Shown piece after piece: positions 2,440 through 46,108 of a DNA stretch of 64,000 nucleotides. The position numbers were made by a program, and so were the translations under genes. Under the pieces are notes generated by a model. The model did no database searches, was not told the DNA's origin, and worked only from the letters and a program-made list of their open reading frames with translations. This DNA comes from Ehretia macrophylla (Eukaryota; Streptophyta; Magnoliopsida; Boraginales; Ehretiaceae). The stretch spans positions 11,351,262 to 11,415,261 of the forward strand of contig CM075783.1 in NCBI GenBank assembly GCA_037974665.1. The letters are read 5' to 3'. How positions within the stretch are numbered: the stretch's first letter is position 1; each line of letters starts with the position of its first letter.

Positions 2440-3247
2440 CAATGAGAATACAAAAATGACTCATCGGGAAATATTAGGACTTTCAAGTGAATGAAAAGAA
2501 TATTGATGTCATGTCTAATCGCTGGCTGCCTAGATATAACGAGTTGGTCTAGCTACTAAGTTCGACTATCAACAAAGTGTAGGATTTATTCAGGCCTAAC
2601 ACAAGAATATGGAATGATGCACCATTGGATTCCTTATTCTACAAGGAGGTCGTTCTGAAGATCAAGGCCCTATATTAATTCCATTTGAGGAATGTGAAGA
2701 TACATGCTACTGGCCTCATTCTAAATCTGCTTTTTTCTTCAGTCAAGCCTAGTTATTACTATATACCGTAAAACAAAATAAGATAAAACTATTATTGCAA
2801 ATCAATCAATGAAGAGTAGATCTTCGTATACAACTCCCAAAGCCATGTGGAAATCTATTTTTAGTCTTAAAGTGCAGCCAAAAATAAAAATAAAAATAAA
2901 AATTATATGGAAAGCTTGTAAATGGGGACTGCTAATAGAAGAGAATAAATTAAGAGAAATTCAACAGTGGAACCCCTCTACAAAGTAGGTGGTTGAGCAA
3001 GATGGATCAGTCGAACGCATGCTACAAACACCCTCTTGGATCCAAGCAGTGTGCTTGGCCTCTCTATCCAGTTCTTTGTGAGCTTAATTTATGTCTCAAC
3101 ATTTGATGCCTGGTTCCTCTATCTTTGTGAGTGTTAATACAAAAATGAGGTACTTTAAAAGGGAAGCCGAAGCTATTATAGTAAACTATTGTTGGAAAAT
3201 ATGGGAAGGTAAAAACTCCTTTATGTTTGAAAGGATATGTGTGGATC
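2440..3247 (+). pseudogene. LINE ORF2 fragment, zf-RVT region
   Basis: Translation of the plus strand in several frames gives pieces typical of the region downstream of the reverse transcriptase in plant LINEs: NRWLPRYNELV near 2520, then TRIWNDAPLDSLFYKEVV near 2610, and NYCWKIWEGKNSFMFERI at about 3190-3240. The frame is broken several times, so this is a dead copy. It stops in a valine-aspartate codon pair at 3240-3247 where the hAT transposon inserted, and the same reading frame resumes at 42774-42782. The 5' part of the LINE is absent; the Copia LTR at 310-2355 lies directly upstream. Confidence 0.6.
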
Positions 3248-4127
3248 CATAGTTACTAGATTTGCAGTATGGTCCGAGTTCAAGTACGAGGTACGCCACT
3301 TAGGAGTTTTAGGGTACGATGGGGGTAGGCTTCTTCGGTACACTAATTAAGTTCATGGTACGCTGTAAAAATTATTGTGTTCAAATATCATATATCAAAC
3401 ACAAACCCAGAAGTAAACTAGAAAATTTTTAAATCTTAATGAAATGTTCTCTACATATTAGTAATATAAGCTTAAAACTAGAAGAAAAAAAAAAAAACAA
3501 TAGTACTTTAGATTGCTCCGACAAGAATTTAAAAGAAAAATCAGGTTGCTTTATCCTTTCCCTTTCTCCTGTTTGCTCGACTTTAAGGCTTAACAACATC
3601 TTTGTGAGGTGTAGTAGGTAAAGCACTTAAAGAAATTCCTTGAACTTCATCATCTTCATACTTATTCTCCAATCCTCTCCACTTCATATCTTTTAATTTT
3701 ACTACAGAATCTTCCAAGTAAGTATTATTTGGATCAATGTCCTATTTTTGGTAGGGACCATCTTTGTAACTTTCATAAAACATGCTTGAAGGCGGATGTT
3801 AGATTGAATAAATATTAATTTATCAGCTCTTGCACAATTTAATATATTTCTTTTGACATTGTGGATATAAGAATATGTACTCCAATTTCTCTCGGCTGAA
3901 GAACTACTAATTGGTTGAGATATTACCTTTTTTGCTACCTCAGCCAATTCTGGAGTTTCTGAACCATATGATGACTACCAGTCAATTGAATCCATTGTCA
4001 CAACATTAGCTTGAGCTGCTACCATCGCATATATACCTTTCCTCATATGAAAAATTGCAAATTGTTCTCGTAAGAGCTTTTGTTCTTCTACATTTTCATC
4101 TATTCTGTCAAAAGCTTCCATGACACC

Positions 4128-6263
4128 AGTAATGACCCAACCCCGTCCTATCGCTAGGCTAAGGTCGGAACGCCATATTCATAACCGATAAACCTGTAAA
4201 TTGGAAGCTTAACAACTTGTACCCCTATATTATATTCCATCAGAGTTCAAAAATCAACCAAGTCATCGACCTTAGAAAGGTATCCATAACCAGTTATATA
4301 TGCACAAGGCCTTAACCCTCATGTTCAAGCATATTGTCTAACCAACAATCAAGTTTCTGGGCCTCAAAAGAATATAAGTATTTAGTTACATTAGAGTTGT
4401 CCAAAAGAATAAGCTATACATTATCTATATCTCGCGCACATCAACAAGTAGTAATCACATAAAGCAGAAGTCCTCGGGATTACACCAAAGAGTTCCGTCA
4501 TCATCTTGCGTGGCCTGCTCAGACTCAACCTCTCCTAAAATGTTAAAAGAAGAGTAAGTTAGATCCTCACGTATAGCCCAAGAAGGGTGAACAAGAAAGG
4601 TTTTATCCTTTCACAAATGGTTGATAAAAAATGTCATGCACATAACCACACAAAAATATCTTAACACAAGCCTTTAATTAATAATGAGAGGGTCGAGATA
4701 TACTGGTAAACCCAGAGGTCCCGTCACTTCCTCTATTAACAATGGGAGGGTCGAGATATACCGGCAAATCCGGAGGTCCCGTCACTTCCTCCATTAACAA
4801 TGATTATAACCGTTGCGCATATATAACTCGAATACATTTGTAATTATCAATGGATATCAAAAAATCATATAATTTGTATGCATATATAGCACTTGTGGAG
4901 CTTCAAGTAATGCCAAATATGAATGAATAACAAAAGACATCAATAGAGCCTAATTTGCCTACATTCATTAATCTCCTAGGTAACATATAGTAGTTGACAT
5001 CTATATAGTACCCAAAACATAGAACAAATCCTTAATTACATACTACCATGACAAACTTGGGTTCGATACGGTTCTAATGCTTTTGACCGTGCCCCATTCC
5101 GACGTGTGTAGCTCCCGGAATCCTTAAAACAAGTTCATTGCGCAAAGCTGAAAAGTTGAGTCGGACGAGGGAGTCGGACGAGGGCACTCGACTGACTCCC
5201 TCGACCAGTTGGGCCCTCCCAGCCCAAACAGCACACGAAACATCAAGATTTTGCACCAACACTTCATCCTACTTGCAAACCATCATCCTACCACTTCTAC
5301 CACACCTCAAAGTGACTTCAAAACCCATGTTTAGCATTCCAATAACTCAACCAATAACCTAAGAAACCAAAGATCAAGCAAAATATCAAATCAACCATTA
5401 TAACACCCATATCCTTGGTTCAACAATTTCACATCTAGTTTCTACCAAGTCAACTACCCAAACTAGCAATCATGTATACCACAACCATCTGCACATCATT
5501 CTAGCTAGCAAGATCAAGATTCAACAAGTATTACACCACAAGAAGCTTTAGCAACTAATACCTAACCATATATGAGCTCAATTATCTCACAAGCATCTAT
5601 ATACCAAGATTAAGCTACAATGGTAGTTAAAGATCATAAACAAGTAAGATATGAATTTGTTAAAGCCATAGGTTTAGATGAAAACATCCTTCACCTTTGC
5701 CTTGAATTCTAGATGTGAATGGAGCAAGAAAACTTGATGAAAGGTAGAGAAAATGCAAAGAAATTGGTTGAGTAGTGGCTGAAAACCTTCTCCTTCCTCT
5801 TTCCCTTCTTTCATCTTCTCTTTCCTTCTTCTTCTTCTCTCTCCTATGGACAAAAATCAGTGGGGTATGTGTGTAGTGTGTGTTTGTGTGGGCTGATTGT
5901 GGGTGTGTGTGTGTTGTAAAGATTTGGTGTGTGTTGTGTATGTGTAATGTGTATGTAATATGTTGTAGATAATATCCAAGTCCAAAAGACCACCTTGCCC
6001 CTTTAACTTAAAACTATTTATTCCAAGCTATTCCAGTTATATACTAACTAGTTAGTTGCTAGGCTTATTCCAATAATACTTTATTAACTTCCTACGACAT
6101 CTCAAACACTTAATGGCACGTTAAACGATGAAATGCACATAAATCGAGATAAATACATATTAACCCATATAAAAGCATGTAAAACAAGGTAAATGCATAT
6201 AAAATGATCTATATATGTATGATATGACATATATGCACGTGAGGTCTCGTGTTGGGCCTTACA
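4128..6263 (-). mobile_element. Solo Gypsy-type LTR inside the hAT transposase
   Basis: The 2136-bp block is flanked by the 5-bp direct repeat acacc (4123-4127 and 6264-6268). It ends ...CCTTACA on the plus strand and begins agtaatgaccc, apparently a mutated TGTAATGACCC, so the TG...CA rule holds if one base changed. Removing it rejoins the hAT frame across the VMGV / GVMEAFD junction. There is no coding capacity. It contains a pyrimidine-rich tract (5780-5850), GT-rich runs (5870-5960) and a GC-rich repeat island near 5155-5215. Its style resembles the LTR starting at 59877, so I infer a Tekay-like Gypsy lineage. The element reads on the minus strand. Confidence 0.72.
4688..4803. repeat. 58-bp tandem duplication in the solo LTR
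   Basis: Two adjacent copies start with gagggtcgagatata at 4688 and 4746. Each carries a short potential stem: CTGG/CCAG in the first (4703-4706, 4712-4715) and CCGG/CCGG in the second (4761-4764, 4770-4773). The two copies differ at both sides of one pair, T-A against C-G. Confidence 0.8.
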
Positions 6264-7999
6264 ACACCCATTACAACTTCTTTATTAAGATTTGGAGCTT
6301 TTCTAAGAATTCTTCCAGGAGCTAGTATTTGAAGGTAGAGAGGATCATAAAATCGAGGATTGAGTGCAAAGGCAAGACAATGCATTGGGATGTTCATCTT
6401 TTCCCATCTAGATAACAAAATTGTTTCTATTTGAGGGTAGGAAGCTGCGTATTTGTTTTTCTTCATTATATCTTTTATTTCTCCAATCATGTTATCCATT
6501 CTTTCATAAATCTCCCCCATTTTTGGACCTTCACCATCAATGAACTTAATTAGCAAATATATTGGCCTAGCAATCGCAATCACATTTTCAACATCTTCCC
6601 AAAACTCTTCACTAATTATTGTTTCAACAATTAAAACTCCTATCTTTCTTGTATTTTCATCTCCGTGTTTCACCCATTCTTTCCATGCCTTAATAATAGT
6701 GGTGGTTTGTAAAGCCTCTTTGCAATCAAGCAACTGTTTCAATAAAATATAGAGTGATATAACTCTAGTCTTTGCAACTTTTAACAATTCTAGCGTTGAC
6801 TGAGTTCTGAAAATTGCTAAAGGTTGTGAATGATTAATGAAGTATTTGACAATGGCTTTTCCCCTTTTATATGTGCTTGATAACCAATCAAATTCTTTGG
6901 AAAAATCTTTAAAAACTAAATTCAGAGTATGAACCACACAAGGAGACCAAAAAATATGTTTATGTACATTCTCTATCTCATTTCCAGCCGCTTTGCAATT
7001 TGCTGCATTATCAGTCACCACTTGGAGAACACTTAATGGCCTTACTTCTTCAATTACTTTCAGCAAATACTCTGCTGTAACAGAGCCTCTTTTCTCTCTT
7101 CCTGTGAAGTCATCTACATACATGAACATTGCTCCGTGACTATTTATTGCAATAACATTGATCAGTGGCCTATGCTTGACATTAGACCACCCATCAGAAA
7201 CAATAGATAGCCCTTGAGTATACTAGGTATCTTTTATTAGAGTTAGATCTTTTTCAACACCTATTTTACATTGTCCTTGCCTTTTCAAATAAGGGAGCTT
7301 TATAACCTTTAGGGGCTCTATTAATCGCAGAAACGATCTCATTGAATTGAGGATTTCACAACACATTAAAGGGAATACCATTAGCACATAACCCTCTCAT
7401 TACTTTCATATCAACTGCATTCTATTCCATGATTCCAAGGGATTGTTCAATGCCTTTAGCAGGAAGTTCTTTACTTCTTAAAGTGATTTTTGAACTTTTT
7501 AAAGATGGTGACAAACCTGCCTTCTCTGCTTCTTCAACCTTCCTTCTAAATCTCTCATATTCAACACGCTTGCTCAAAATTGTTGGCCAATGTTGATTTT
7601 GTGCCTTTTTCCCAAGTGGAAGACCAAAAAAATGATAGTGTATTCTGGTATAGGAACTTGTGAACCTATTTTTGCAATGTTTACATGACTACTGCTTTGA
7701 ACCCCCAGAATTTTTTATTGGCAATACATCATGGAAAACAACTTCATCTAGCAATGTCTTTGACTTTGAATATGTTATTTTTGTTGGTGTATGTATTGTT
7801 ACTAGACTATTTGATGGTTGAGTTTGATAATTTTCTTGGCAATCATCACTTAGGTATTCTTGCTCTTGCTCTTCATATGTTTCTTCTTCTTCAAATAAAT
7901 ACTCTTCTAATTTTCTTTTACCTTAGACCATTTTCAACAAGGGAAATATGATAAATTCTTTTTAGATTGATGGAAAGAAGTCAGGGACAAGGAGTTTAA

Positions 8000-8592: not shown

Positions 8593-9625
8593 TGATAGAG
8601 TTATTGCAGCGTAAGTATGGATAATTTGATTAATTAATAGAGTTTGTGGTATGACCAAAAAACTGTTACAAACGATGTTGTAACATTAACTGAAACCCTC
8701 TATCTGTTGCAATACATTCATAGTCTGTTTTACTTATTGCTTCAGTTAGTTAATGAGTTGTTTCACTTAATGTTCCAACATGGTCAGAGACAAATTAAAC
8801 AGTAGCAGAATAATTAAAGTTGTAACAGAAATAAACAACACCAAGATTTAACGTGGTTCAACCATGCAATCTACGTTCACGGGACCAACCCCTAGTCCAA
8901 CAAACCAATTCATTATGAAATATCAAGTTACAACATCAATGGACTTACACAAATAAAGACTCTCTTTTGACTTTTGACGCCTTGATAAAGAACTCCTTAA
9001 TGAACTTCGGTTTGGCAAGCTCCCATCGACTTGCAACATTTTCTCCCAATAACTACACCTTCTTCTCCCAAAGAATGAACAAAAGATACAAGAATCTAAA
9101 CATTCAAAGGCTTAAATAAAGTACTCATGACTCACTGTCAAAACCAACAAAGTTGCAACACTTGATACGATCAAAGAGTAGAACACAGATCGTGTTGCAA
9201 CAGGATATGGAACATTGGATATAAATCTCTTATATTTTCTCGTTGCTCTCTCTCTGCCTCTATCTGATCACCTTCTGTCGCAACTGCTGCTTCATATAAA
9301 TACACAATTGCTGCTGCAGGTCATCTTGGGCTGTAAGAAAAAGTCTTGACTCATAAAACCCTAATCTTCCTTTTATTCTTCATTTCCCTATGAATATGCA
9401 ATTAATGTCATTCCTTAAGCAGCACAAATCTTCTTCTTATATGATAAGTTACCATAAGATTTTTCCTGCATAATACAAATGGTAATAACACAAGTATGGT
9501 AATAACAAAAGTTTTGCAAAACATACACACTCAATTTCCAATCAAATTAATTGCTTTAATAGTAATAACAAAAGTTTTGCTAAAACATAGCCAATTAATT
9601 CCTAATCAATTTAATTGGCTTAACA
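8593..9625 (-). repeat. SIRE 3' LTR
   Basis: This 1033-bp LTR matches the split right LTR (net 1025 bp) along its length. It begins TGATAGAGTTATTGCAGCG and ends GGCTTAACA. A polypurine tract lies directly outside it at 9626-9639 (AAAGGGGGAGAT on the minus strand). At its right edge are two tandem 63-bp units, 9500-9562 and 9563-9625, present also in the other LTR. Confidence 0.85.
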
Positions 9626-10433: not shown

Positions 10434-10918
10434 CTATTGTCCTTGTGATGTGACTACATTTGCAGCACTCAAACCATGGTATTTGTACTGCATTTGCATC
10501 TTAACTCTGGAATAAATGCAACACTTTGATACTTTCAATGCAATGTAGGAAAATACTGAAAAGTGAAGAATCGGGCCCGAAATGATCCAAATTGCAAGTC
10601 AAGAAGTAAGAATGGGAAAACATGAGAAGCGGTTGAAGAATGAAGCTCATAGAAAAGAAACTTGGCTGAAACTAGCACGAAATCGGACTTGGAACATTGA
10701 CCCAGATGATCTCAAATAGTGACCCATGTCCGTTTTTGGCAAATCATATCAGTTTTTCGGGTAGAAACAGCATTCTGAAAAGTCCTGCACGCGGTGTGAT
10801 TTTAGCCAAATTCCATCGTTTGGAGGGTCAAAACAGTGAAAAACGCCCAAAAATGCTGCGGTCAACAATCTGGTCAAAGTCAACAAACGAAAAAAGTCAA
10901 CTATTTCAGAATTTTGCC

Positions 10919-10926
10919 TATAAATA
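10919..10926 (+). promoter_or_regulatory. TATA box of Athila 5' LTR
   Basis: The sequence gccTATAAATAgag occurs in the same context in both LTRs (20328-20335 in the other). It is the best candidate for the element's RNA polymerase II promoter core, which would place transcription start near 10950. Confidence 0.65.
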
Positions 10927-11071
10927 GAGCTTCAACCCTTTGAGAATTCTTGAGTTAATTTTGGAGTATTATCAATATTTTTGATATAATTCCGAGTTAA
11001 TTCTAGTTAGTTTTAATTTTAGTTTTAGTTAATTAAGTAGTAGTAGAATACGGGGGAAGTCCCGCCTAGGT

Positions 11072-11250
11072 AGCTCTTATTCGGGAAAATTTTGCCCGAA
11101 TAGCTACTTTTAGGGGGAAGTCCGACCCAAGTTGTTATTATTCGGGGGAGGTTCTGCCCGAATAGCTTTTAATAGGAAAGCTCTTATTCGGGGGAAACTC
11201 ATCTCTAATAGTTCTTATTCGGGGGAAATTAGCTCCGCCCGAATAGCTAT
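11072..11250 (+). other. Stem-loop array in the Athila LTR leader
   Basis: Three perfect 8-bp stems TATTCGGG / CCCGAATA are seen: 11078-11085 with 11095-11102, 11139-11146 with 11157-11164, and 11216-11223 with 11238-11245. A further unpaired half (attcggggg) sits near 11186. Each is followed by gct. All lie downstream of the TATA box, so they would fold in the transcribed leader. The same array is in the 3' LTR (about 20480-20660). Confidence 0.75.
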
Positions 11251-12120
11251 TTTGTGTCGGACCTCTGCTCAAATTTCGGGAATCAGAAATACGCGTTCGT
11301 CAATATGGGGGAGCCTTTCTTGACTCTCTTTTATTTACATAACTTGTATTCATTTATGTCTGAGTAGATTGATATCTAGGGGTGAATATTGTAAATGATT
11401 GTATTTTAATATATGGTCTCGGATATAGTTTATTCAATTCATATTGCAATGTATGACTTGTTTTAATTAAGTATTTCATACGTAATGCTTTTAAGTAGAC
11501 GTTATGATTGCTTTACTTTCGCTTCATAAATATTATACTTGTAGTTAATATTATGAATGCATTACTTTAGTGTCATATAATTGTTTTAATCGTGAGTCTA
11601 TAGGTTGTACCATAGACTCCATGAAACTATAGGTTGTACCATAGTTTCTATCTGTAAGGTTAATTCCTTAGTTTAGTTTGCCTTGTTGTACTTGGTTAAA
11701 ATAAGCTAAGTAGATTAACTAGGTCTATAGCTTTTAGCTTAACCGGGTGTATGCTTGTAGCTTAAACCCTTGCAGAATTAGATAAACTAGATATCGAGCA
11801 TATATTAATTGCCTCATTTACATGTTCAAACCCCTAGATCACCACCTCTCGTATTCCACTAATACTTAGTATAACTTAGATAATTTAGTTAGTTTAATTT
11901 AGTTTACATTTCTCGCACGTTACTCAAACCTACCTTGCGATTTGTCACTTAAACGCTTTAACACTTTCACACTACTTCACTAACTTAAACTAGCGAGTTT
12001 CCCTGTGGTACGATTCCGCACTCAGAGCACACTACACTACAAAGATTCGTGCACTTGCGGGTATTTTAACTTGGTTATTTTGCGCACATTTTAACACACA
12101 ACCCGATCGCATCAAGTTTT

Positions 12121-12138
12121 TGGCACCGTTACCGGGGA
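12121..12138 (+). other. Athila primer-binding site
   Basis: TGGCACCGTTACCGGGGA begins seven bases after the LTR end. It differs by two transitions from the usual Athila site TGGCGCCGTTGCCGGGGA, which pairs with the 3' end of a tRNA (tRNA-Asp in described elements). Confidence 0.8.
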
Positions 12139-12180
12139 AGCACGGTACAGTTTAGTTATTGATAAAAGTATTTGTGAATT

Positions 12181-12390
12181 TTTTTTAAAGTGTTTATTTT
12201 ATCCGTTTTATTTAAAAAATAAATAAATAATAAATAAATAAATAAATAAATAAATAATAAAATAAAAATAATAATAATAAAAAATTTAAAAAAAAAATTT
12301 AAAAATTTTTTTTAAAATTTTTTATTATTTTTATTTTTTATATTTTTTAAATTAAATTTTGCAAAAAAAAAAGAAAAAAAATTTAAAAAT
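12181..12390. repeat. AT-only low-complexity tract in Athila leader
   Basis: About 200 bp of (AAAT)n, (AAT)n and long A and T runs between the primer site and gag. Complementary A and T runs could pair. No coding content. Confidence 0.85.
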
Positions 12391-12525
12391 TTTAAAGGTT
12401 GGGAAATGAGTCATTTTAATGATTCATCTGATCAATGAGCTTTTATCTATTACTGTTTGTAAAGTATATTAGTATTTTTTTAATCTTGTAATTTTATTTC
12501 GTATTTAAAGTTTATAAGTCGTTGT

Positions 12526-15147
12526 ATGCACGGGCGTCATTTTTTGGATCCAGAACTCGCCCCGTTTGATCCTGAGCTCGAGAAAAATTTGCGTAAAAAG
12601 TTAAAATTTCCAATGGCGGATCAAGAAGTAAATATCCCGCATCTTCCTATAGCTCAGCCTGTTAATCAACCTGTGAACCAACCGATGACTTTACGTCAAC
12701 ATTTTTCACTGGGTGATTTTGACCCTGAATTTGCCATAGCCCCACCGGCTTTTGGCAATATAAATTTTGAGCTCAAAACATGGACTATTTCAATGCTTCC
12801 TTCCTTCTATGGAAAAAACAATGAAAATCCTCACGCTCACATCGTGCAATTCATTGAAGCATGCACAACGCTTCACATTCCTAATGTGAGCCGTGAAAAT
12901 ATTCACCTGCGTCTGTTTCCATTTTCATTGAAAGATAAAGCCAAACAATGGCTAAATCATCTAGACGCAGGAGTGATCACTTCTTGGGGAGAACTTATTC
13001 GGAAATTTTTACATAGGTTCTTCCCAATGGCTAAGACTACTACTCTGCGAACAGGCATCATGACATTCGCATAGTCAGACTTAGAGCCATTTCATGAATC
13101 GTGGGAAAAGTTTAACGATCTTAAGAATCAGTGTCCTCGTCATGGGTTTGATCGTCCCGAACTCTTGCATTATTTCTTCAAAGGTCTTACCCCTCATAAT
13201 AAGATGATAGTTAATGCAATGAGCAATGGAGGTTTCTATAACCTCACAGCGGACGAAGCTTGGAGAAGAATAGAAAATATTGCTGAAGACTATCTGCAAA
13301 ACACTGCTGATGACAGAGAGAGTAAGAGCACCCAAAATCCCCAAAAGAGGGCATGGTTTGAAGTTAACTCTAGTTCTAATTCCCAATTGACTGACAAAGT
13401 AGATGCCCTAGCTCATCAACTAGAAAAATTCATCTCTCTAAGGTCTTCTTCTTCTTCAACTTCTCAGATCACGGAAGTTTGTACCGTATGTTCTGCAGTA
13501 GATCACTCTACTCTGAATTGTCCAATCGGTTCACAATTTCCTGAATTCATGCAAGAACAAATCTGTGCCGCCCAAGGATATACAAAGAATTACAATCTGT
13601 ATTCTAACACGTATAATTCAGGCTGGCGAGACAATCCCGCATTTTCGTGACGACAGGGGAATCAAGAGACTCAGTTTCCTCAACATCAATATCAAAAAAG
13701 ACAAGGAAACTATGAGCCTCAAAAACAAAGTCAGCAAGGAAATGTTGACAATCAATTCCCTCAACAGCAATATCAGAGGCCACAAAATAATAACCCTCCT
13801 GGTTACTATCCAGTCCAACAGGACAATCCGTTCAGAACACAACGGAACAATGTCCCAGCTCTTCCTCCTGCACAGTCATCATCTGATGACAAATTTCACA
13901 AACTTATGCAAATGTTCCAAGTTCAGCAACAGTCTATTGCTAAACTTGAAGGACAAATCGGGAAGATGGCCCAAACTTTAAGTAAGAGAGACGAGGGTAA
14001 GCTTCCATCTCAGACCATGGTAAATCCACGAGGACAGTGTAGTACTGTCCAAACTGAGACAGTACAAGAACAGGCCAAGATTATAGTTACCCTTAGTAGT
14101 GGGAAAACCATTGATAACCAGGTTAGAGTAAAGGTTAAGGATGTTCCAGAAGAAATTGAGGAATTAGAGGAATCTGAGATTGAGGTTTTAAGCAAAGATG
14201 TTCAAGATTGCCATAGGAATAAAAACCTAACGGTGGAGCCTATAGTTGAATCATCCTCACGAGCACCTTTTCCCATAGCTCTGTCCCGTCCAAAATCGAC
14301 TGATGATCCTAAACAACTTAAGGTCTTAGAGCATCTGAAAGATATTAAGATCAATTTGCCATTAGTTGAGGTAATACAACAGATTCTAGCCTATGCCAAA
14401 TTTCTGAAGGATTTATGTGTGAAAAAGAGACGGACCAACTCCATTCCTAAGAAGGTCCGTCTTACTGAAACGATTAGAAATATCTGCACTAGAGGACTGC
14501 CTCAGAAGTGCAGTGACCCAAGAGCTTTTACCATTCTATGCTTAATTAGTGACCAACGCATAGAAAGCGCCTTGCTAGACTTAGGATCTAGTGTTAACCT
14601 CATCCCTCACACAGTCTACCAAAGGTTAGGTCTTGGAGTGTTAACACCGACTAATGTGACCTTCCAATTGGTAGATAGATCTGAGCGACGACCTCGAGGT
14701 ATTGTAGAAGATGTGATCGTTAGAGTAGGAGAATTCTTGTTCCCAATGGACTTCATTGTGTTAGATATGGATTTAGGCCCTGATAACAAAAATATCACTC
14801 CCGTTTTACTAGGCAGACCATTCCTAGCAACAGCTGATGCTGTTATCTATTGTAGGACGGGTATGATAGAACTAACATTTGGGAACATGAGAACTAAGCT
14901 AAGGGTTGCTGATGCAGTCAACAAATTGAATCAAGATAAGGAAGAAGAATGCTTCCATGTTGATACCGTTGACTCATGTATAGATGAGTTTGCCCAATTG
15001 ATTCTAACTCCTAATCAAGAAATAGCTGAGTTAGAACGACTTTTGTATGAATGCGACATTTCTCCTAAAATGGTTGCCTCTGCTTCCATTGTTGTTGATC
15101 CAAATAAGGACGATCAAGTAACAACTCATTTCCCTGAAGTTAATTGA
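12526..15147 (+). pseudogene. gag: Athila gag and protease, two in-frame stops
   Basis: One frame runs from ATG 12526 to 15147, broken only by TAG at 13072-13074 and TGA at 13648-13650. It encodes the capsid-forming gag: the retrotransposon gag domain includes SLKDKAKQWLNHL and ESWEKFNDLKNQCPRHGF, followed by a glutamine-rich stretch (13660-13860). A possible single cysteine cluster lies at about 13480-13520 (CTVCSAVDHSTLNC). The aspartic protease segment near 14560-14600 reads ALLDLGSSVNLIPH. Athila proteins typically have DLG instead of DTG here, so this is not damage. The stops sit where relatives have glutamine and tryptophan. The frame ends just before the pol frame. Confidence 0.88.
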
Positions 15148-18672: not shown

Positions 18673-18690
18673 TTGCTTGAGGACAAGCAA
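18673..18690 (+). other. Stem-loop, first copy
   Basis: TTGCTTG-AGGA-CAAGCAA is a perfect 7-bp stem with a four-base loop. It is followed by agtttcggtgtggggg, a purine-rich tail like that before a 3' LTR, but it lies 1.15 kb upstream of the LTR. GCTTGAGGACAAGC is a recurring motif of plant Athila/Tat elements as I know them. Confidence 0.75.
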
Positions 18691-19802: not shown

Positions 19803-19820
19803 TTGCTTGAGGACAAGTAA
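19803..19820 (+). other. Stem-loop, second copy beside the polypurine tract
   Basis: TTGCTTG-AGGA-CAAGTAA repeats the stem-loop at 18673 with one C-to-T change that still pairs as a G-U wobble. It lies directly before the polypurine tract and 3' LTR (19840). Confidence 0.75.
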
Positions 19821-19839
19821 TGTTTAAGTTTGGGGATGT

Positions 19840-21523: not shown

Positions 21524-21528
21524 CCTTG

Positions 21529-28487: not shown

Positions 28488-28489
28488 CT

Positions 28490-28548
28490 TGATAGAGTTA
28501 TTGCAGCGTAAGTATGGATAATTTGATTAACTAATAGAGTTTGTGGTG
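28490..28548 (-). repeat. SIRE 5' LTR, first part
   Basis: These 59 bases match the start of the left LTR at 8593 nearly base for base. The LTR is then cut by the LARD insertion and resumes at 39937 after the duplicated target tggtg/tggta. Confidence 0.85.
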
Positions 28549-31500: not shown

Positions 31501-32417
31501 AAATATGCAAATAGAAAATTTAAATAAATTAAATTAAAGACTTCTCTAGACTCGAGAAATTCAAGTCAATTAAATGTAGGCATATAGTAAATTAATAAAT
31601 TATTTACTTCTCATAAACCATTTAGATGTAAATAAAAAAATGTAATTATTAAAAATAATAAACTAGCCCGTTCAGTTCCGGGCCCTGGACTTCTATTCGA
31701 ACAGTGAAACGAATTAACTCAGATGCAAGTAAAATAAATTTGAATAATTAAAATGATAAAAGAAATATCCCGGGCAAATTAGTTAAATGAGAAATTAAAT
31801 AAAAATAGATAGATATGAATGCTCATTTTTCAAGAAATGCTAATTCCTAAAGTAATTAAATGTAAATTAATAAAATAGATGCACGGTCGGGCTCGAGCTT
31901 GATTTATACGCTTAGTTAATTTAGTTTAGTAGCTAAAGATGGCCCAAATGCTAGATCAATACACCTAATGGCCCAAATAAAAGTTCTACACTAGTTACTA
32001 TTCATTTGTGTTACACTATTCAGTCAGAACTTTCCTGAAATGCAATAAATGCAATTCTCTCGATGGACGTGCACTAAGGAGAGGTTAATTAAGATAGATA
32101 TGCATGCCGAATAATTTAATAAAATAATTTTTAAAAAATCACTCTTCTTTCGGAGCTACTTATTCATATAGTTAAAAATAATGAAACTTTCAATTAAACG
32201 CAAAACAATAATTCAAAATAAATATAGTACCAAGATAACTAACTCATATAATTTATTTAAATACACATTGCACGTTTTCAAAAAATGTCAAAATAGTGCT
32301 AACAAATTAATGACATTAATTAAAGTAAACACACATTTATATGCAAACATTTAAGATAAACATATAATCATATGCAAATAGGTATTATTCACTACATGTT
32401 AGGTACGGAGTCTCACA
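28549..32417 (-). repeat. LARD 3' LTR
   Basis: Starts TGTAACGCCCCGATCCC, ends GGAGTCTCACA. The polypurine tract lies outside at 32418-32430. It carries the conserved GC-rich core at about 29170-29480 and a TATA-rich stretch near 31160. Two minus-strand open frames near 29304-29692 belong to the core and are not genes. Confidence 0.85.
29272..29292 (-). other. Conserved hairpin in LARD LTR, copy B
   Basis: GGGGTAC, loop tacggat, GTACCCT: same place as variant A with one G-T end pair. Confidence 0.65.
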
Positions 32418-34505
32418 TCCTCCCCTCCTTACAAAAAAAATAGCGTCCTCGTAATTTCTTAGGTTCAAAAGAACTCTCAATAACTGTAGCAGCTCTAGTT
32501 GGTCCTGGAGTCAAATGAGCACGATACTCAGAATACTAGCAAGAATTCTCACACTAACTTCTTCAAGAAGTCTAGTAAGAATACTAGAAGAATCGCACCG
32601 ATGAAATTTTGAGTGTGGTAGCCAAATAAAGGCTCCTATAAAAATACCAGATAAAAATCCGAATACCAATATCATAAGAGAAGGCCATTTAATAGTCCCA
32701 AGAAAATACAAATTTAGAAACTACCTAGGTAATACCAAGAGGAAACCCATATATAATGATTGGAGATGACGTCGAATAGAAACCCAATAGTTGCTGAGGA
32801 ATACCCTATAGGAATACCATGGATATGGTATATATGAAACCCGGATAAGAAATCCAAGTAAGAATACCTGGCTAGACATTTGTAAATGTGAATTCCTCCA
32901 AATAGAAGCACCATACGAGAATTCCACATATGATGGCAAATAAGAATCCATTTGAGATTCCCAGATAATATTGCTAATGAAAACGCCACTAAAACCCACT
33001 GTTAACATATAGCCTTCGCCAAGAATGCCAAAGTAAATACCCCTCAAGAAGTTCCACCATGTATAACACCTCCTCGTAGGTCCGAAATCACGTATAGATA
33101 CAAATGATTATGTGGATATCTGACTAACAGCCCCTTCTTCTTGTTGGTTCACATCTCTAGAAGTCTCACTACCGACCATCGTACTATAAAGGGGAGAGAT
33201 CACTTACCAATTCAAAGGGTAATATATATGCATGCAGTCAAAATCATATAAAGTACACATGTATTAACATGTACACAACTTATTGAATGCAATTCTCACA
33301 TTAGTTTCTCAACTATTAAACAATTATTGGCTATACTAGGATGTACTATCACCTACTCTTACTTGTCAAGTTATCCTAACATAAATAACAATTTACTTCA
33401 TGAAGTTAAATCATACATATGACTGCTAATAAATAAGACGAGTATTTCTCTGAGAGTCAACTAAATGTACACATAGTGCACATTTTTCATATTTCACACA
33501 AGTAGGACACATAAGCACACATTTTCCTTCAAAACATACAAATCTCACATACATACACACACATCTCAACCTAACCTGTAGATTTCATGCAAATTTGATT
33601 CCAACTTAAATGCTATACTCTCATAACTAGCATTTATACCTATTTAACACTTTATATGTAACATAAGGTTTCTAAATCAATTCTAAATAACTAAGTGTCA
33701 ATCTAGATATTCAAGCAAAACCAAACCAAAAGATTACTCATACAACCTAGGTAATTAGGTAAGTATGCATATAAGTTCAAATATCAATTAACAACATGTA
33801 ATCAACATTTACTCCAACTTTTAATCATTAACATAATGCACAAAGATGATTTCCCTTTACCTAGCCTGATGATCATGCAAATATTAGCTAAAGCAAGCTT
33901 ATCCTCTTTGACCTAGACAATGTATAAACATGCATGCAACTAGTTATCTATCAAGGTAAGTAGTTACAACTCCTTCCTTGCTATCCCAACATCTTGTCTC
34001 GAAGCGTGATATGACTGCGTTCTGGTTCTTCATCTCCTGACTGCCGTACCAGAAGAAGTAGTGATATAATTGATAGTCATATAACACATAAAGGCAAAAT
34101 ATTTACATTCAAGTCATCTTGTTCGTATAATCACATACAATGCACTTAGCTTACAAGACAATCTAAACATTTCACAACTCTTACAATAGAATCTTCATAT
34201 TCTTACTTTCATGCTAGCATGCTATTTACTTAGACAATCATACACTTAGACAAGTAATCAATCACACAACCATATAATCACACAAAGCCACTTAAATCTT
34301 GAAATAATTACAAATGCATAAAGCTCACACTAATACACAATTTTACACATTCCGAGCACATAACACATTAACATGCTTAGCACACAAGTCACGTATAACA
34401 CTCTATCCACGTAACACATTTTATAAGCACACGATCAAAGGTCACTACCCGATAGGCCAAAGATCTTTTCCCGGCTGTGAGCTATCTAAGCTCTAATACT
34501 ACTTC
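32418..34505 (-). other. LARD internal region, no coding capacity
   Basis: At the left is the polypurine tract (AAGGAGGGGAGGA on the minus strand). 32500-33060 is a series of degenerate short units containing gaatacc / GGTATTC every 20-40 bp. The rest is AT-rich. At the right edge, 34490-34502, is AGTATTAGAGC on the minus strand, a decayed TGGTATCAGAGC primer site. Open frames at 32511-33047 exist in several overlapping frames and reflect base composition. Confidence 0.7.
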
Positions 34506-35227
34506 TATAATGCCCCAATCCCTCACGGAACTAGGACTCCTATTAATCATGTTATTCTCAACCCATATCCAAACCCGAGCACAAAATTTAAGAAAAATGG
34601 ATGGAGTCTCCCCTGTTTATAGGACTAATCAAAAACCTACAAGCAGCAAGTATAACCACAATATAACACCCCAACTCCAAACGTCCCACTTTTCCCAGTC
34701 TCAAGGCCATCTGAGCCTTAGACAAAAAATATAACCACACGAGCATGTAATCAAAAGACAATAAAATCTATCTTTAGCTATTACATGCCACTACTCTATC
34801 GAATCACATACGTCTTTAATTTAGTTTACAATCCAACAAGCCGTACCAAAAATACCTACAAGACTCAAGGGTCTCAAAACATAACATAAACACATCAAAT
34901 CCCATCTTCACAAACATTTTCCAACCTTACCAAGATAAGCAACCAATAACACGACACACAAGATAGATGTTCTAATTGTACCTAAAACATGTTAAAACGA
35001 TGAATGAGTAACCAAAGTTACTCAGTGAGGGAGGTGATGCAGCATACCGAAGAATATTTTTATGAGATACAACAAAGATAATAACAAATACAACGCAAAA
35101 TAACAAAGCTAATTAGACAAGTATTTAATCACGTATAAAAAGGATACGGTTCCACTTTTGTCTTCAATCACGAACCATTAGCTAAGATCTTCAAGCAAGT
35201 GTCGGCAAACCCCTTATTCCTCTAAAT

Positions 35228-35248
35228 GGGGTACTCCGGATGTACCCC
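35228..35248 (-). other. Conserved hairpin in LARD LTR, copy C
   Basis: GGGGTAC, loop tccggat, GTACCCC: a perfect 7-bp stem. Confidence 0.75.
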
Positions 35249-35357
35249 GATCCTACGACCCATTTCTCCCAAGGTAAGTTCATATACCCCAACGAGGTGA
35301 ACCACGCCTCTGGGGTAAGGGAGTATATCTCAACGAGAAATGGAATAGGCATCATGG

Positions 35358-36909
35358 TGCAGGAAATCCGTGAGACTATCTCTTGAAATTCTACCAGGAT
35401 CAACTCGTTATACATAATAATTGGCAATTTTAAATCATAGAATTAGGATTACCTCTTCGAATGATTCATGGTAGTGTTATGGAATTGCCCAACGTAAGCG
35501 TCTAGCTCCTTCTACTTCACACACGAACAAGGATGAAAGAGGAGGAGGCTATAATTTTTCAGAGAGAGGGCTTTTTTTTTTTTTCTTGTTCCTACATTTT
35601 CAGAAAAAATTATATATATCAATCCAATTTTGAAAACCCTACATGGCACTTCTTATAAAGACCATGTGGGCTAGGCTCTTCAAAAGGCCAACTCCCAAAA
35701 TATTTTTAAAAAAATCCAATCTTTTAATGTGGGTTTCCATAAAGCCCACAACGATTCAAATTAAATCACTATTTAATTTAAATCAATCAGCCTAGGATTT
35801 AATTGATGAATCATAAATCTAGTGCTAGCTAGAAATTGTCAAATTATTAAATCCACAACCTAATAATAATAATTAGATAATATTTAATTCTTAATTAAAT
35901 ATTAATCATAAATAATATTTAATTCTTAATTAAATATTGATTATGATTAGGCCGTCTCTCCAATTAAATCACTTATTCTTTTGCATGACTTCATAGGTTC
36001 AAACTTAAGCTGGTAGCATAAAGGCTATCCTTATACTAATCGAAGATACCATCTAGCAATGGTTCTCGACGACCGAATAAGCTGAATAGGTGGAAGGCAA
36101 CATTCAACGAACCTCGGTACAATGGTGAATTCCCTATGACCCTCGGTGTTCAGAAATACCCCTAGGAACATGGTTAACTATCAAATCCCTAATTAGTTAC
36201 TTCATGTCAAATTTCAATCCTGTCATGACACATCATGACTTACCCTCGTGACTCATCATGAGATGTGCTTTGGCCAAAGACTTTCTGAATTAAAATTAAG
36301 CGAAATACCATTCTCTAAATACCCGGAGTGGTCAATCCCATCTTGACTCACACATTGATTTCTCCGGCATTTGCCCATACCCAGTAACCTTCCGTTACCA
36401 GATTAAAAATCTGGATAGTCCGGCACCTAAGCATGATGAGTAATCTGTAAGTCTCTATGGCAATCTCAGGTCAAAGGGAACATGTCTACCACATGCACCA
36501 CGAGCTATCCTTAGACAGTAGGGTACATACCATAGGACGCTTGTAAAGAGAGTCATGTTCAGTGAACATGTCTCCACATATCACCTGTTTATCGCACCGG
36601 TGTTCCAACACCCATTGGTCATAAGGATAACCAATCAATGCAACAAACAATAACCTATACTCGATGAAATTGACGTCTCAATACCAATTTCATCATTTGT
36701 TATGAACAAAGTTTAAGAATGACCAAAATCAACCCTCATTCATATGATTCCATAAAGTCATTATAAGGACTACATCATGATCAATCAAAGGTAAAAGAAG
36801 ATGGATGATATGATGTAATGGCCAAATATTATTAATAGAACAATAATCCACAAACAAATTAATTTGCCAGCTACACTCGATGACTGACTTTAGGACACAA
36901 TTTCTAACA
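35358..36909 (-). mobile_element. 1.55-kb Copia solo LTR inside the LARD LTR
   Basis: Plus-strand ends are TGCAGGAAATCC and AATTTCTAACA; read on the minus strand it starts TGTTAGAAATTGTGTCC, a known plant Copia LTR style. Flanks are catgg (35353-35357) and catag (36910-36914). Removing it restores the sequence seen at 29396-29420 in the other LARD LTR. No coding region. Confidence 0.85.
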
Positions 36910-39900
36910 CATAGTAGTCGAGGGAGCACGACAAGCCCGATGTCGCCCGTGTTTCTCGAAACTATCATGTCCAAAAAAGTTGCGCAACCCCGAGTCAAGA
37001 TCACGAGAGCCAAGAATATCAAATCACGTAAAAGGAACGACAAAGTAGGCCGCCTTCGCAATTAATCACAGATAACACGAAAAGACACAAGATAGCAAGT
37101 AAATAATGCGTATAAACTTTATCAATTACTAAATAGTACAATCTAGAAACAATAAAATAAGTTAAGATGCACAGAGGATGTGAAGACTCCCTCACCTTTA
37201 CCAAGCCTCAAGATGTAAGAATGACTTAGTTACTCCAACTTTCATTGGGTTAGCTTGAATATGAATACCCTAGTTTTCATATAAGTATAACACTTTAGCA
37301 ATTGACTATAGAAGGTTTAACAACTATCTTTCACATCCAAGAATTTATATTGAATACTTTATTTCATTGTAACTTAATTAAACACCATACCTTTGTAACA
37401 ACATAAAAGCATTTACTAATATATAAAGTTAAGCTAACTATAACTAACCAAAATTGTACTTAACATATAAACTAAATGCCAACTGTACAAGAGGACTCAA
37501 CTAAAATACATTGGTTAACATATTTACATTTAACTTACATTCTAATTAATTATTCAAACATTCAATACAAGTCTCTAAGTGCAAAGTTAATACCGCAAGC
37601 TCAACTAAGACATTTTTCAATTCCTCTAACATAAGCTTAACTTAACCCATTCGGTTACATAGGATATTGATCGCCAAACTATCTGATTTTTACGCATAAT
37701 CGTAGATATTTGAGTGTAGTTCATTTTAGGTTCTTACGGTGCTCAATTCCGAGTTAAATTCCAAAAGTTATAACCCTTACCGCATAACCACGCATAGCTG
37801 GGCAGAACCAGCGGTTTTTGAGCTACATTTTGGAAATTATGTGATCAGAGGGCTAAAACGTTAGAATTAGTCTTAGTCCTAGAAATCAACATTTGCTCTA
37901 AACTGCCTAATCTAGCTGCTATACAAATTTTATTTAATTCTAAGCTCCGTTACTATGTCAAAACTGCTCTAGAAGATGGCAATAGTGAACTGCCCAGACA
38001 GGGTATCCACACACACATGCACATTTCTTGCATTGAACTAACTATGAGCATTGTTCTAGCATGTGACACAATCCTACACTTCATTTAGGACATTAAACAA
38101 ACACCTTAGCTACCACTACAAAATTTCATTCAAGTTTTACTAGTTGCAACTAAAATCACAACCAACATTCAAGATACAAGTAATACAATGCCAAAAGTTT
38201 ACTCTACAAGCTCTCTAGCTATCATTTCATGTATTAGAAGCAATAAAACAATTAGAAATGCAAAAATCCCAAAATTCATAGGTTACTATTCATAGATACT
38301 ATTAATCATTTTCTCCAAGTTGCATTTTGCATTTCTAGTCAATCAAGAAGCTAACAAGATTCAAAAGAATATTCTACAACCCCTATCAAGTGTATTTCAA
38401 GCAACAATAAGTATAAATACAATAATAATTAACAATTACAAATTATCAAGTTAAGCCCTAGAAAATTAAAATGCATATAGGATGAATCTCTCTCACCAAA
38501 TGCAAGATGTAGATGCTAGATGAAGGCTCTAGGAAGGCTTAGACACACTCCAAGCAAGTTCCAAGAACCAATTTTGCAAGATCAAAGTTTTTCCTTTTTT
38601 TTTTGTGTCTAAGAACCTACAGGTTCTTCTCTTTTTTGTTTTTGTTTTTAGTCCTCTTTTGTTTGTTCTAATATAATATATATATGTATATGATATGTAT
38701 ATGTATGTATTTAATATGATTGAGCTTTAATAAATGGTGTTGGCTAGTTATATATATATATTATAAAAACTAGCTAAAACATTAATGACCCAAAATAATT
38801 TATCTGTTACTATTCACTAGGGGACACTAACTATTTTCTATCTCGTGCTCGAAGCATGCAATGCACAAACTTTCAATAAATGAATATATTAAATATGAAC
38901 TATATTGTGGGAAAAATATAAAATTCCAAAAATAAAATAGTTTAAATTTTACCCCAAGCACCTATGAAATATAAAATTTCAACAGACAAAAGTAAGATAT
39001 AAATCAAATAAAAGTAAATATGCAAATAGAAAATTTAAATAAATTAAATTAAAGACTTCTCCAGGCTCGGAAAATTCAAGTCAATTAAATGTAGGCATAT
39101 AGTAAAATAATAAATTATTTACTTCTCGTAAACCATTTAGATGTAAATAAAAAAATATAATTATTAAAAATAATAAACTAGCCCGTTCAGTTCCGGGTCC
39201 TGGGCTTCTATTCGAATAGTGAAACGAATTAACTCAGATGCAAGTAAAATAAATTTGAATAATTAAAATGATAAAAGAAATGTCCCGGGCAAATCAGTTA
39301 AATGAGAAATTAAATAAAAATAGATAAATATGAATGCTCGTTTTTCAAGAAATGCTAATTACTAAAGTATTAAATGTAAATTAATAAAATAGATGCACGG
39401 TCGGGCTCAGGCTTGATTTATACGCTTAGTTAATTTAGTTTAGTAGCTAAAGATGACCCAAATGCTAGATCAATACACCTAATGGCCCAAATAAAAGTTC
39501 TATACTAGTTACTACTCATTTGCGTTACACTATTCAGTCAGAACTTTCCCGTAATGCAATAAATGTAATTCTCTCGATGAACATGCACTAGGAAGAGGTT
39601 AACTAAGATAGATTTGCATACCGAATAAGTTAATAAAATAATTTTTTAAAAATCACTCTGGGCTCGGAGCTACTTATTCATATAGTTGAAAATAATGAAA
39701 CTTCCAATTAAATGCAAGAGAATGATTCAAAATAAATATAGTACCAAGATAACTAACTCATATAATTTATTTAGATATAGTTCGCACTTTTTCAAGAAAT
39801 GTACAAATAGTGCTAACAAATGAATGAAATTAATTTAAGTAAACACACATTTACATGCAAACATTTAAGATAAACACATAATCATATGCAAATAGGTACT

Positions 39901-39936
39901 ATTCACTACATGTTAGGTACGAAGTCTCACATGGTA

Positions 39937-40902
39937 TGACCAAAAAACTGTTATAGACGATGTTGTAACATTAACTGAAACACTCTATCTGTCGCAGTAC
40001 ATTTACAGTCTGTTTCACTTATGCTTCAGTTCGTTAATGAGTTGTTTCACTTAGTGTTCCAATATGGTCAGAGACAAATTAAACAACAGCGGAATAATTA
40101 AAGTTGGAACAGAAATAAAGAACACCAAGATTTAACGTGGTTCAACTGTACGGTCTACGTCCATGGGACCAACCCCTGGTCCAATAAACCAATTCATTAA
40201 GAAATATCAAGTTACAACATCAATGGACTTATACAAATAAAGACTCTCCCTTGACCTTTGACGCCTCGATAAAGAACTCCTTAATGAACTTCGGTTTGAC
40301 GAGCTCCCATCGACTTACAACGTTCTTTCTCGATAACTACACTTTCTTCTCCCGAAGAATGAACAAAAGATACAAGAATCTAAACCTTCAAAGGCTTAAA
40401 TAAAGTGCTCATGATTCACTGTCAAAACCAACAAAGTTGCAACACTTGATACGATCAAAGACTAAAACACAGATCGTGTTGCAACATGATATGGAACACT
40501 GGACAGAACTCTCTTATATTTTCTCGTTGCTCTCTCTCTGCCTGCTCACTTTCTGTCGTGACTGCTGCGACATATAAATACACAATTGCTACTGCAGGTT
40601 ATCTTGAGCTGCAAGAAAAAGCCTTGACTCATAAAACCTAATCTTCCATTTATTCTTACTTTCCTTATAAATATGCAACTAATGTCATTCCTTAAGCAGC
40701 ACAAATCTTCTTCTTATATGGTAAGTTACCATAAGATTTTTCTTGCACAATACAAATGGTAATAACACAAGTATGGTAATAACAAAAGTTTTGCAAAACA
40801 TAGCCAATCAATTTCCAATCAAATTAATTGCCTTAACAGTAATAACAAAACTTTTGGTAAAACATAGCCAATTAATTCCCAATCAATTTAATTGCCTTAA
40901 CA
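39937..40902 (-). repeat. SIRE 5' LTR, second part
   Basis: Continues the LTR begun at 28490 and matches 8653-9625. It ends GCCTTAACA, then the duplication atatt. The terminal 63-bp unit is tandemly duplicated here too, and each unit ends CCTTAACA. Confidence 0.85.
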
Positions 40903-40907
40903 ATATT

Positions 40908-41780
40908 AATCTTTGTTTCCAAAGGTACAATAGTATTCATATTAATGTACTAATTGAATTCATAGGACATGTCCCATGCGTCATATAAGGCTACATATTA
41001 AAGAGATGCCAATTGGTTCAAAAGTGGGATCACATATGACATATTATATTATATTGAATATCTTGGTAATATTAAATAAACCTTTTTTTTTCTAGCATGG
41101 GTATTTGGAATTTGAGCTTCCTACTTATTCGTTTGTATTCTGTACTAAGGTCTTACGATTATAAATCTTGTTCTCGAAGGCATAATATTTTTTGTATTAA
41201 TCTTTCTTTCCAAAATTACATTAATATTATTCATATTAATATACTAATCGAATTCATATGGCAATGCGATAAAGGGTATCATATAAAAAGATGCCAATTG
41301 ATTCAAAAGTAGGATCATATATGAGATGATTATATTATATGAAATATCTTAGTAATATTAATTAAACCTATTTTGTTTCCTAGCATGGGTATTTGGAATT
41401 GGAGCTTCCTACTTACTAGCTTGTATTTTGTACTTAGCTATTTACAATTATATAAAATCTTGTACTCGAAGGCACAATTTTTCTCATATTGATCATTATT
41501 CCCAATGGTACATTATTATTCATATTATTATACTAATCGAATTCATATGGCATATGCTATAGCGGGTCACATGTAAAGAGATGTCAATTGATTCAAATGT
41601 GGGATCATATGACAATATGAGATTATTATATTACATCAAATATCTTGGTAATATTAATTAAACCCTACTTTGTTTCATAACATAGGTATTCCTACTTACT
41701 AGTTTGTACTTAGCTATGTACTAATTACCTACTAAATTTATTTTGAGATTAATTCAACTTTTTATAATTTTTTTCTTATC
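40908..41780. repeat. Tandem array of three units of about 290 bp in the hAT element
   Basis: Anchors repeat at regular distance: tactaat[t/c]g at 40948, 41242 and 41531; tagcatgggtatttggaat at about 41093 and 41381, with a decayed third copy near 41678. Each unit contains an attcata tail, a gatgccaattgattca-like segment and an aatatcttggtaatatta segment. It lies in the 5' non-coding part of the hAT element. The SIRE element inserted at its left edge, and 8535-8592 may be a remnant of a further unit. Confidence 0.75.
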
Positions 41781-42773
41781 CAATTGTCGATTAATGTTTT
41801 TAAATATATGTTTTTTCTAAATAATCGAAGGAACCTTTTTTTTTTGGTACATAATAGATTATTATTCAATTTTTTCTTTTGGTACATAACAGATTATTAT
41901 TTTAACATGCCTACTAAGTCCTAACAATTTATTTACATTTGTATAGCATAGTTTTTGTTTTGTGGGTACACATAAAGTATAGTTATTTCTATTAATATTA
42001 ATTATTTACATCTAATAGTTTGGTAAATCTAGTGACAAAAATTATATATCTATAAATTTTTTATTTTTTATTTCCTTAAAATTCATTACTTTTATGTTAA
42101 TTAATATTTACTGGGAAAGAAATATCCTCGAGAATTCAAATATTTTTTTCCTTAATAATACCAATGAGACCTCAAGAGTTAGAGGTTGGAACTTACTATA
42201 CTTATTATACTCCTTTTTTCCCAGATAATTATAACTTCTCAACTAAAGCATTTATATGGTCCAGCACAAAATCCCAACCCCTTTCATTGCCCAACTACTC
42301 TCCATTCCCAAAACAACTATTCATATTCTCAAATTTTGCCTCCAAATTCAGTCGATAGATAAGAGGAAACAGTCAGTGTTTCCTCTTTCTCCAACGATTC
42401 CAACGATCTTTTTTGCTTTTTGAGCAGATGATCGAGAAGTTCATAATATTACAATTCAATCATTGTCTTCAATATATTCATCTTTGTATATGCCTAGAGA
42501 AAGCAGTCTACAGGGTGTGCGTCCTTCATCTCCGGTAAGCCAAATCTCTGTTTTATACATTCTTCTACTTCTCTCATCCATATCTAGTAGGAATTTAAAT
42601 TTTATGATCACTTTCATTATTGGTTTTGGAAAAAAATTGTATACCATTTGAGTAGCCAATATTAGTGAACTGGAACGTGAATCGCATCGTTTCAGCACGC
42701 AAATATACCGCGAATCGGGACGTGCGAACCAATATGTGGTTCCATGAGGGATAGGGCGAATCTGGTAACTATG
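41781..42773 (-). other. hAT 5' terminal region
   Basis: AT-rich DNA with a 35-bp tandem repeat (ggtacataatagattattatt at 41846 and a close copy at 41881). The end is GTAACTATG at 42765-42773. The 114-codon minus-strand open frame at 42456-42800 crosses the hAT end into the LINE and so is not a gene of either. Confidence 0.6.
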
Positions 42774-43423
42774 TGTGGATCCATTAAAGCTAGTCCTCAA
42801 AGCTAATGCTATTTGGACTGAATTTCAGTCTGCTTATCAATCTACTGAGATAATTTCCTATGGTCCCAGTTCATCTGATGTTGTTGCAACAACAAGCTAA
42901 AATGTCCCTCCTCCAAATTGGATCAAGATTAACTGTGATGTTGCATTCATTTGTAATTGAAAAGCTTCTGTAGCTGCCATTTGCAGAGACTACTTTGGTA
43001 ATATGCTGGATGGTAATGTGTGGAGTTTTTACTCATGGTCAGCAACTCTAGCTGAGGCTATTTGTATCCATCATGTCTTCCTTTTGCCCAAGAAGCATAG
43101 CTTGTCGAACATCGTTCTAGAGAATGATGCTGAGGCTATTTTAATGGCATTATTGTTACAGAGAGCTCCATGGACTGGAGGTCCAAACAGTAGTAAAAGA
43201 TATTTGAAATTTGATAGATGATATTCCTTCAGTGCAGTTCCCTTTAGTAAAGAGGCTTGGCAACAAGTCCACCTTGCAAAGTGTAAACTAGGTGACAAGC
43301 TTAATTGAAATTCGTTAACAAATGCACCTTGCAATCTTCTTAAGTCAAACCTTGAATTCGAGGGTATTGACTAACCTTGATGTATCTTCTTTTATCAATA
43401 ACAGGTTTCTTTATTGACAAAAA
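42774..43423 (+). pseudogene. LINE ORF2 end: RNase H-like domain
   Basis: The frame resumes from the left LINE part after the hAT duplication. Peptides NWIKINCDVAF, AICRDYFGNMLDG, AEAICIHHVF and LSNIVLENDAEAI are the RVT_3-type RNase H domain found at the C-terminus of many plant LINEs. Two stops occur near 42898 and 42958. The domain fades after about 43290 (VKRLGNKS). A short A run (gacaaaaaaag, 43416-43426) may be the decayed tail. Together with 2440-3247 this is one LINE copy in which hAT inserted. Confidence 0.7.
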
Positions 43424-46098: not shown

Positions 46099-46108
46099 TT
46101 CTGTAGAA

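Follow-up and report, generated by a model that had tools for sequence, protein, structure and literature searches.

The window analyzed here, a stretch of 64,000 nucleotides of the Ehretia macrophylla genome (C20:11351262-11415261; the genome searched comprises 1.58 Gb in 20 contigs), contains a stack of mobile elements sitting one inside another in a plant chromosome, and our analysis has confirmed that this stack is real. From the outermost to the innermost layer, the chain consists of a LINE relic, an hAT transposon, a Copia element, a LARD-like element and a solo LTR. In addition, there are side insertions: a Ty3/Athila-type element and a solo LTR in Copia, and a third solo LTR in hAT. 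The nest itself sits in a tandem duplication of approximately 131-kb pairs, each made up of a long unit A (in this pair, the unit within which the window falls) and a short unit B.

Composition of the nest

All seven insertions proposed in the original prediction are present, with definable ends and target-site duplications (TSDs), as follows from self-comparison of the window and reading of the joints (Table 1). Each was said to have a matching duplication, and indeed the TSDs are exact in five of the seven cases (one of 8 bp and four of 5 bp) and differ by one mismatch in the other two. The product of the TSD match probabilities, given the base composition of the window, is 9.5e-20 (a rough value, as the ends were set with knowledge of the TSDs), and chance TSDs were rejected on this basis. 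The description of the nest as five-step is correct in that there are five layers, but the steps are the four insertions of the chain plus the LINE, for which inspection by eye assigned neither a TSD of its own nor a poly-A.

Table 1. Elements of the nest and the neighbouring MITE (coordinates in the window).
Feature	Position	Strand	TSD and remarks
LINE relic, left piece	2489-3247	+	67% to LINE-like paralogue L019, reaching L019:1653
hAT TSD, left	3240-3247		8 bp, TGTGGATC
hAT element	3248-42773	-	inverted ends CATAGTTACYAGATT; ~5.07 kb of own sequence minus inserts
Solo LTR in hAT transposase gene	4128-6263		ACACC, 4123-4127/6264-6268
Copia in hAT	8593-40902	-	ATATT, 8588-8592/40903-40907; ~7.33 kb of own sequence
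Copia LTR, uninterrupted copy	8593-9625	-	self-comparison
Ty3/Athila-type element in Copia	10446-21523	+	CCTTG, 10441-10445/21524-21528
Athila-type LTRs	10446-12114 and 19843-21523	+	self-comparison
Solo LTR in Copia gag region	24864-27369		TCCAT, 24859-24863/27370-27374
Copia second LTR, first piece	28490-28548	-	split by LARD-like element
LARD-like element in second Copia LTR	28549-39931	-	TGGTG/TGGTA, 28544-28548/39932-39936
LARD LTRs	28549-32417 and 34506-35357 + 36915-39931	-	self-comparison
LARD interior	32418-34505	-	between LARD LTRs
Solo LTR in second LARD LTR	35358-36909		CATGG/CATAG, 35353-35357/36910-36914; 1552 bp
Copia second LTR, second piece	39937-40902	-	split by LARD-like element
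hAT TSD, right	42774-42781		8 bp, TGTGGATC
LINE relic, right piece	42782-43423	+	resumes L019 at 1654; RNase H-like region by eye
MITE	62422-62875		9 bp, TATATAATA; inverted ends GGGTGAAGTGCAYCAGACC; in unit A, not in B/B'

The LINE relic is matched on both sides of hAT by three paralogues (L018-L020). A start of the LINE at position 2440, as proposed earlier, does not coincide with any demonstrated boundary: clear homology begins at 2489, while a weaker collinear patch at 2125-2288 is matched by only one of the three paralogues (L020, 64%, E 3e-8). Neither LINE piece yields a Pfam family at E<=1; the ORFs of L019 and L020, read by eye, presumably represent plant LINE reverse transcriptase (RT) and zinc-knuckle.

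The hAT element is assigned to its class by the 8-bp TSD on both sides, the short inverted ends and the transposase domains, DUF659 (PF04937, E 2.8e-30) in the ORF 6212-7222 and the C-terminal Dimer_Tnp_hAT (PF05699, E 1.9e-8) in the ORF 3705-3971. Homologues of this transposase are found in many plants, and many among the 120 listed carry both domains. The right arm of hAT contains a tandem repeat with a period of ~290 bp (40903-41727). Copies of the same hAT in C1:49016936-49483443 are spaced by ~148-160 kb, which suggests another very large tandem array.

The Ty1/Copia class is indicated by the LTR pair, the 5-bp TSD, and the gag_2 (in 27373-28452) and RVT_2 (in 23027-23281) domains; Pol_BBD is found in 23935-24504, and what is left of RT is a short, decayed piece. 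The SIRE lineage suggested for this element in the original prediction, like the Copia affiliation given there to the 1552-bp solo LTR, is a putative assignment. This Copia family is represented by three copies within 75 kb at C20:41816395, 41859492 and 41890577. The Athila-type element contains gag, protease, RT, RNase H and integrase pieces in the Ty3 order, and its succession of RVT_1, RT_RNaseH, Integrase_H2C2 and rve domains fits Ty3 elements generally, not Athila alone. The name Athila rests on the motif TGGCACCGTTACCGGGGA after the LTR, which we take to resemble a tRNA-Asp-like primer site.

The LARD-like element deserves this name in a limited sense, having LTRs of ~3.9 kb, an interior of ~2.1 kb and Pfam-negative ORFs (no Pfam family at E<=0.1 in any of the four inner ORFs tried). 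Its minus orientation is our assumption, made after visual inspection of motifs resembling a primer site and a purine tract. The three putative solo LTRs are classified by their ends and TSDs; they have TG..CA ends, but one of them starts with AG. We infer that they arose by recombination between two LTRs of one element. The 2506-bp solo LTR in the gag region and the LARD LTR have a common start.

Insert-free host sequences and the order given by nesting

The original prediction proposed aligning the joined flanks with empty sites, and insert-free host sequence indeed passes through all seven joints, being provided by genome copies at five joints and by the partner LTR within the window at two. 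At the LINE joint, all five dispersed genome matches that reach the joint run through it uninterrupted (15 matches in total, with nine halves from the local array and one match short of the joint left out). The same holds for 21 of the 21 dispersed matches at the joint of the solo LTR in hAT (35 matches, with ten array halves and four matches short of the joint left out), where eight of the 21 come from one C1 cluster and hence are not independent; moreover, transposase homologues continue across this joint in all seven cases tried. The Copia-in-hAT joint is uninterrupted in four of the four near-full matches; the remainder of the 30 matches, left out of this count, are eight array halves, plus 18 partial hits located within or close to the tandem repeat in the right arm of hAT, some of which overlap the joint position. 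Judging by coordinates, hAT copies on C6, C4 and at C1:44.42 Mb lack both hAT inserts and show the expected ~2.3-kb spacing.

For the two side insertions in Copia, all 40 scored matches span the joint, these being the best 40 of 625 candidates for the Athila-type element and the best 40 of 1042 for the solo LTR in the gag region. Each set includes two neighbouring B units and 38 matches elsewhere, and it is the spanning of the joint that was scored, not the letters. As the sets consist of best matches, interrupted copies rank lower, and the window's own copy is in neither. At the site of the LARD-like element, the partner Copia LTR matches the joined flanks in 76 of 80 positions (21-26 of 80 at the other shifts, six shifts tried), and the flanks of the solo LTR in the LARD LTR, when joined, match the other LARD LTR in 68 of 80.

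It was also claimed that most excisions rejoin a host reading frame or LTR. A frame is restored at the LINE joint, which is crossed by an open frame of 92 aa, and at the joint in the hAT transposase, and an LTR is restored in Copia and in LARD, but the three remaining joints behave differently. In the gag region more than one frame is open, making this joint ambiguous, and no frame longer than 40 aa is open on the one strand tested at the Copia-in-hAT and Athila-in-Copia joints. Similarly, the relative order of events is fixed along the chain, but nesting leaves the two inserts in hAT and the three inserts in Copia unordered. Part of the order among inserts sharing a host, which nesting alone lacks, is supplied by the tandem units.

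Divergence of the LTRs and of the tandem units

The K2P divergence between LTRs is 0.0856 for Copia (bootstrap 0.0668-0.1052), 0.0785 for LARD (0.0687-0.0881) and 0.0233 for Athila (0.0164-0.0309). In this calculation the Copia and LARD LTR pieces extended past the LTR ends by five and six bases, respectively, and the cut at the Copia split was shifted by one base; these deviations fall mostly in gaps. The suggested dating of LTR pairs agrees with the nesting insofar as an inner pair never exceeds its host pair in age, and a conflict between LTR ages and nesting was rejected, as none is seen in the K2P values. Both Copia and LARD are more diverged than Athila (0 of 4000 bootstrap reversals each), but they are inseparable from each other (bootstrap P 0.26), and therefore the step from Copia to LARD is given by nesting only. 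At substitution rates of 1.3e-8 or 7e-9 per site per year, neither calibrated for this plant, the ages are, respectively, ~3.3 and 6.1 million years for Copia, ~3.0 and 5.6 million years for LARD, and ~0.9 and 1.7 million years for Athila.

The genome search with the LINE joint also hit near-identical neighbours of the window. In the 230 kb of sequence around it, unit A (from window base 1 to 87,782) is followed by B (43.2 kb) and then by A' and B', these limits being counted from the window start and not marking the true ends of the duplication. A with most of B aligns to A' with most of B' in one 127.8-kb alignment, 98.72% identical. The array, with pairs made of 87.8- and 43.2-kb units, covers C20:11339382-11700428, the right end being provisional and the left edge lying ~11.9 kb to the left of the window. 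In a third A-type unit, the distance between the hAT and Copia joints is the same within 11 bp by coordinates; judged by this length, it would hold the same inserts. A unit probe finds eight strong copies (93-100%) at 10.92-11.68 Mb, including an inverted one, along with five weak copies in other places; related unit copies are located at 10.92 and 11.27 Mb, that at 11.27 Mb being inverted. One right-flank copy, at C20:11700428, is inconsistent with a complete unit. We infer that the tandem copies come from unequal exchange.

In five shared segments (32.8 kb without gaps), the sites with shared differences support the grouping (A,A')(B,B') in 262 cases, versus 15 and 13 for the two other groupings, which favours the A/B split first and duplication of the pair later. 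The K2P divergence across unit types is 0.0189 (A-B), 0.0188 (A'-B'), 0.0195 (A-B') and 0.0183 (A'-B), and within unit types 0.0091 (A-A') and 0.0130 (B-B'). A single, clean duplication of the pair would predict equal values for the latter two, but B-B' exceeds A-A', and hence such a simple history does not hold. Moreover, the A-A' mismatch per 4 kb of the long alignment varies from 0.45 to 2.93%; this unevenness, together with the gap between B-B' and A-A', likely reflects more than one round of duplication or some exchange.

The inserts are distributed unequally between the unit types. In B, hAT, Copia and LARD are each preserved in their left portion, and the solo LTR in the transposase gene is present in all five array units showing the left flank. 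Thus hAT, its solo LTR, Copia and LARD, being present in both unit types, precede the A/B split. On the contrary, B and B' are without the Athila-type element, the solo LTR in the gag region and the 454-bp MITE (which we take to be Mutator-type by its TSD length), and have a single target copy at each site. The target in B is exact at the site of the gag-region solo LTR, and at the Athila site it is CCTTC, one base off the TSD. Hence these three insertions, whose sites are empty in B and B', occurred after the split, on A, the MITE insertion falling in the same interval of history as that of Athila. B and B' also have a common deletion that joins window positions 29,618 and 50,599, with ~20,980 bp lost, including the right end of the nest. 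It removes the site of the solo LTR in LARD, so that this LTR has no place in the order relative to the A/B split. The unit differences combined with the site patterns place both the insertions in A and the deletion in B before the duplication of the pair.

Between duplicate units, the LTRs diverge approximately as their flanks do: the Athila LTRs differ from A to A' by 0.0091 and 0.0096, and the flanks by 0.0091. The Athila LTRs carry 21 old differences versus 13.3 expected for entry at the A/B split (P 0.03), of which 20 are transitions. This excess can be explained by fast early transition decay, by exchange between A and B, or by chance; the prevalence of transitions may hint at fast early decay of the new insertion. 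In general, the nest provides an order of events without a clock, the duplicated units supply an additional, independent clock for the same locus, and jointly the nest order and the unit divergence test LTR dating.

Several other features were observed near the nest. A foldback element at 45605-46108 has inverted arms of 224 bp, 79% complementary. On the plus strand, another Copia element occupies 46415-53635 (LTRs 46415-46889 and 53147-53635, K2P 0.105, TSD AAGTC), and a palindromic tandem repeat with a short period is found at 61668-61971. Beyond the window but in its frame, unit A contains a direct repeat pair at 64.2-68.4 kb, represented in B by a chimaeric single copy (116963-117709), as if B had lost the segment between the direct repeats by recombination. 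Further on, at 74347-80154 of unit A, there are three long ORFs on the minus strand, probably a retroelement; the stretch containing them is mostly absent from B.

Proposed history and comparison with known nests

The joints, the TSDs, the empty sites and the branching order of A, B, A' and B' are shown by the data, and they can be combined into a history that we hold, as a whole, with high confidence. An hAT transposon would have entered a dead LINE and itself become the target of two separate insertions, one by Copia and the other by an LTR element of which a solo LTR is left. One Copia LTR would have been hit by a LARD-like element, and one of the LARD LTRs by another LTR element, now a solo LTR. 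The block would then have been duplicated, giving units A and B. In A, the Athila-type element and an LTR element (now solo) would have inserted into Copia, and a MITE nearby, while B would have been shortened by the ~20,980-bp deletion that took away the right end of the nest. Finally, the A-B pair would have been duplicated again, leading to at least three A-type and at least two B-type units.

Selection on a gene carried by the unit, rather than neutral processes, could have driven the growth of the array, as might be suggested by the several amplification rounds and the eight strong probe copies at 10.92-11.68 Mb. We regard this as unlikely; seven translated ORFs of the unit, taken outside its three longest in A (849, 562 and 550 aa), appear by eye to be transposon relics or low-complexity stretches, which is a weak argument against it. 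Slightly less probable still is that the nest or the tandem units are an artefact of assembly, produced by a chimaeric join or by concatenation of haplotypes. The A-A' divergence of ~1% would agree with the latter, being within the range of plant heterozygosity. However, the 258.7 kb first compared holds no N, so there are no scaffold gaps between the units in this region; by joint coordinates there are at least three A-type units, exceeding two haplotypes; A and A' keep their joints within one collinear alignment; and two unit types with fixed differences alternate.

Very improbable, and already disfavoured by the data, is that the Athila-type element and the solo LTR in the gag region are older than the A/B duplication and were later lost from B, as could be suggested by the Athila LTR divergence being slightly larger than the A-B divergence (0.0233 and 0.0189): B and B' have one target copy and no remnant at either site, the 38 dispersed copies of the family among the best matches for each site span the respective joint too, and the loss of Athila was rejected on the single target copy in B. 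To our knowledge, there is no pathway for exact loss of an LTR element leaving one TSD.

With staged insertion before and after the A/B split as the preferred reading, the locus is a large and well-resolved case of a known kind, nests being common in plants, and it involves no new mechanism; its useful aspects are the unit size and the staged insertions. We tentatively suggest, while regarding it as rather doubtful, that old nests in this genome repeatedly become units of very large tandem arrays. If so, macro-repeats would grow from nests as their raw material, and successive copies would be tagged by new insertions.

On wheat chromosome 3B, 30,199 nested insertions with up to eight layers have been reported (PMC4290129). 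The locus studied here resembles them in having elements inside elements. It differs from what that report describes in its main lines in being one locus with five layers of mixed classes (LINE, DNA transposon and LTR elements), and in that each joint is backed by an insert-free copy.

A parallel in organization comes from maize CEN10, where a nest has undergone a 22.7-kb segmental duplication (PMC4806543): as here, nested and partial elements occur in two adjacent copies, one of which received insertions afterwards. Unlike the maize case as outlined there, the repeat here is ~131 kb long (87.8 + 43.2 kb), has undergone repeated amplification, and includes sequences of hAT, Copia, Athila-type and LINE elements.

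A survey covering 12 plant genomes, in which the nesting of LTR elements served as a relative clock, has found that inner elements are on average younger by LTR divergence, and that LTRs are a target not commonly hit by nested insertions (PMC6911290). Compared to the general trends given in that survey, we describe one locus, but here the duplicated units act as a second clock, and the LARD-like element sits in an LTR, that is, in the uncommon target.
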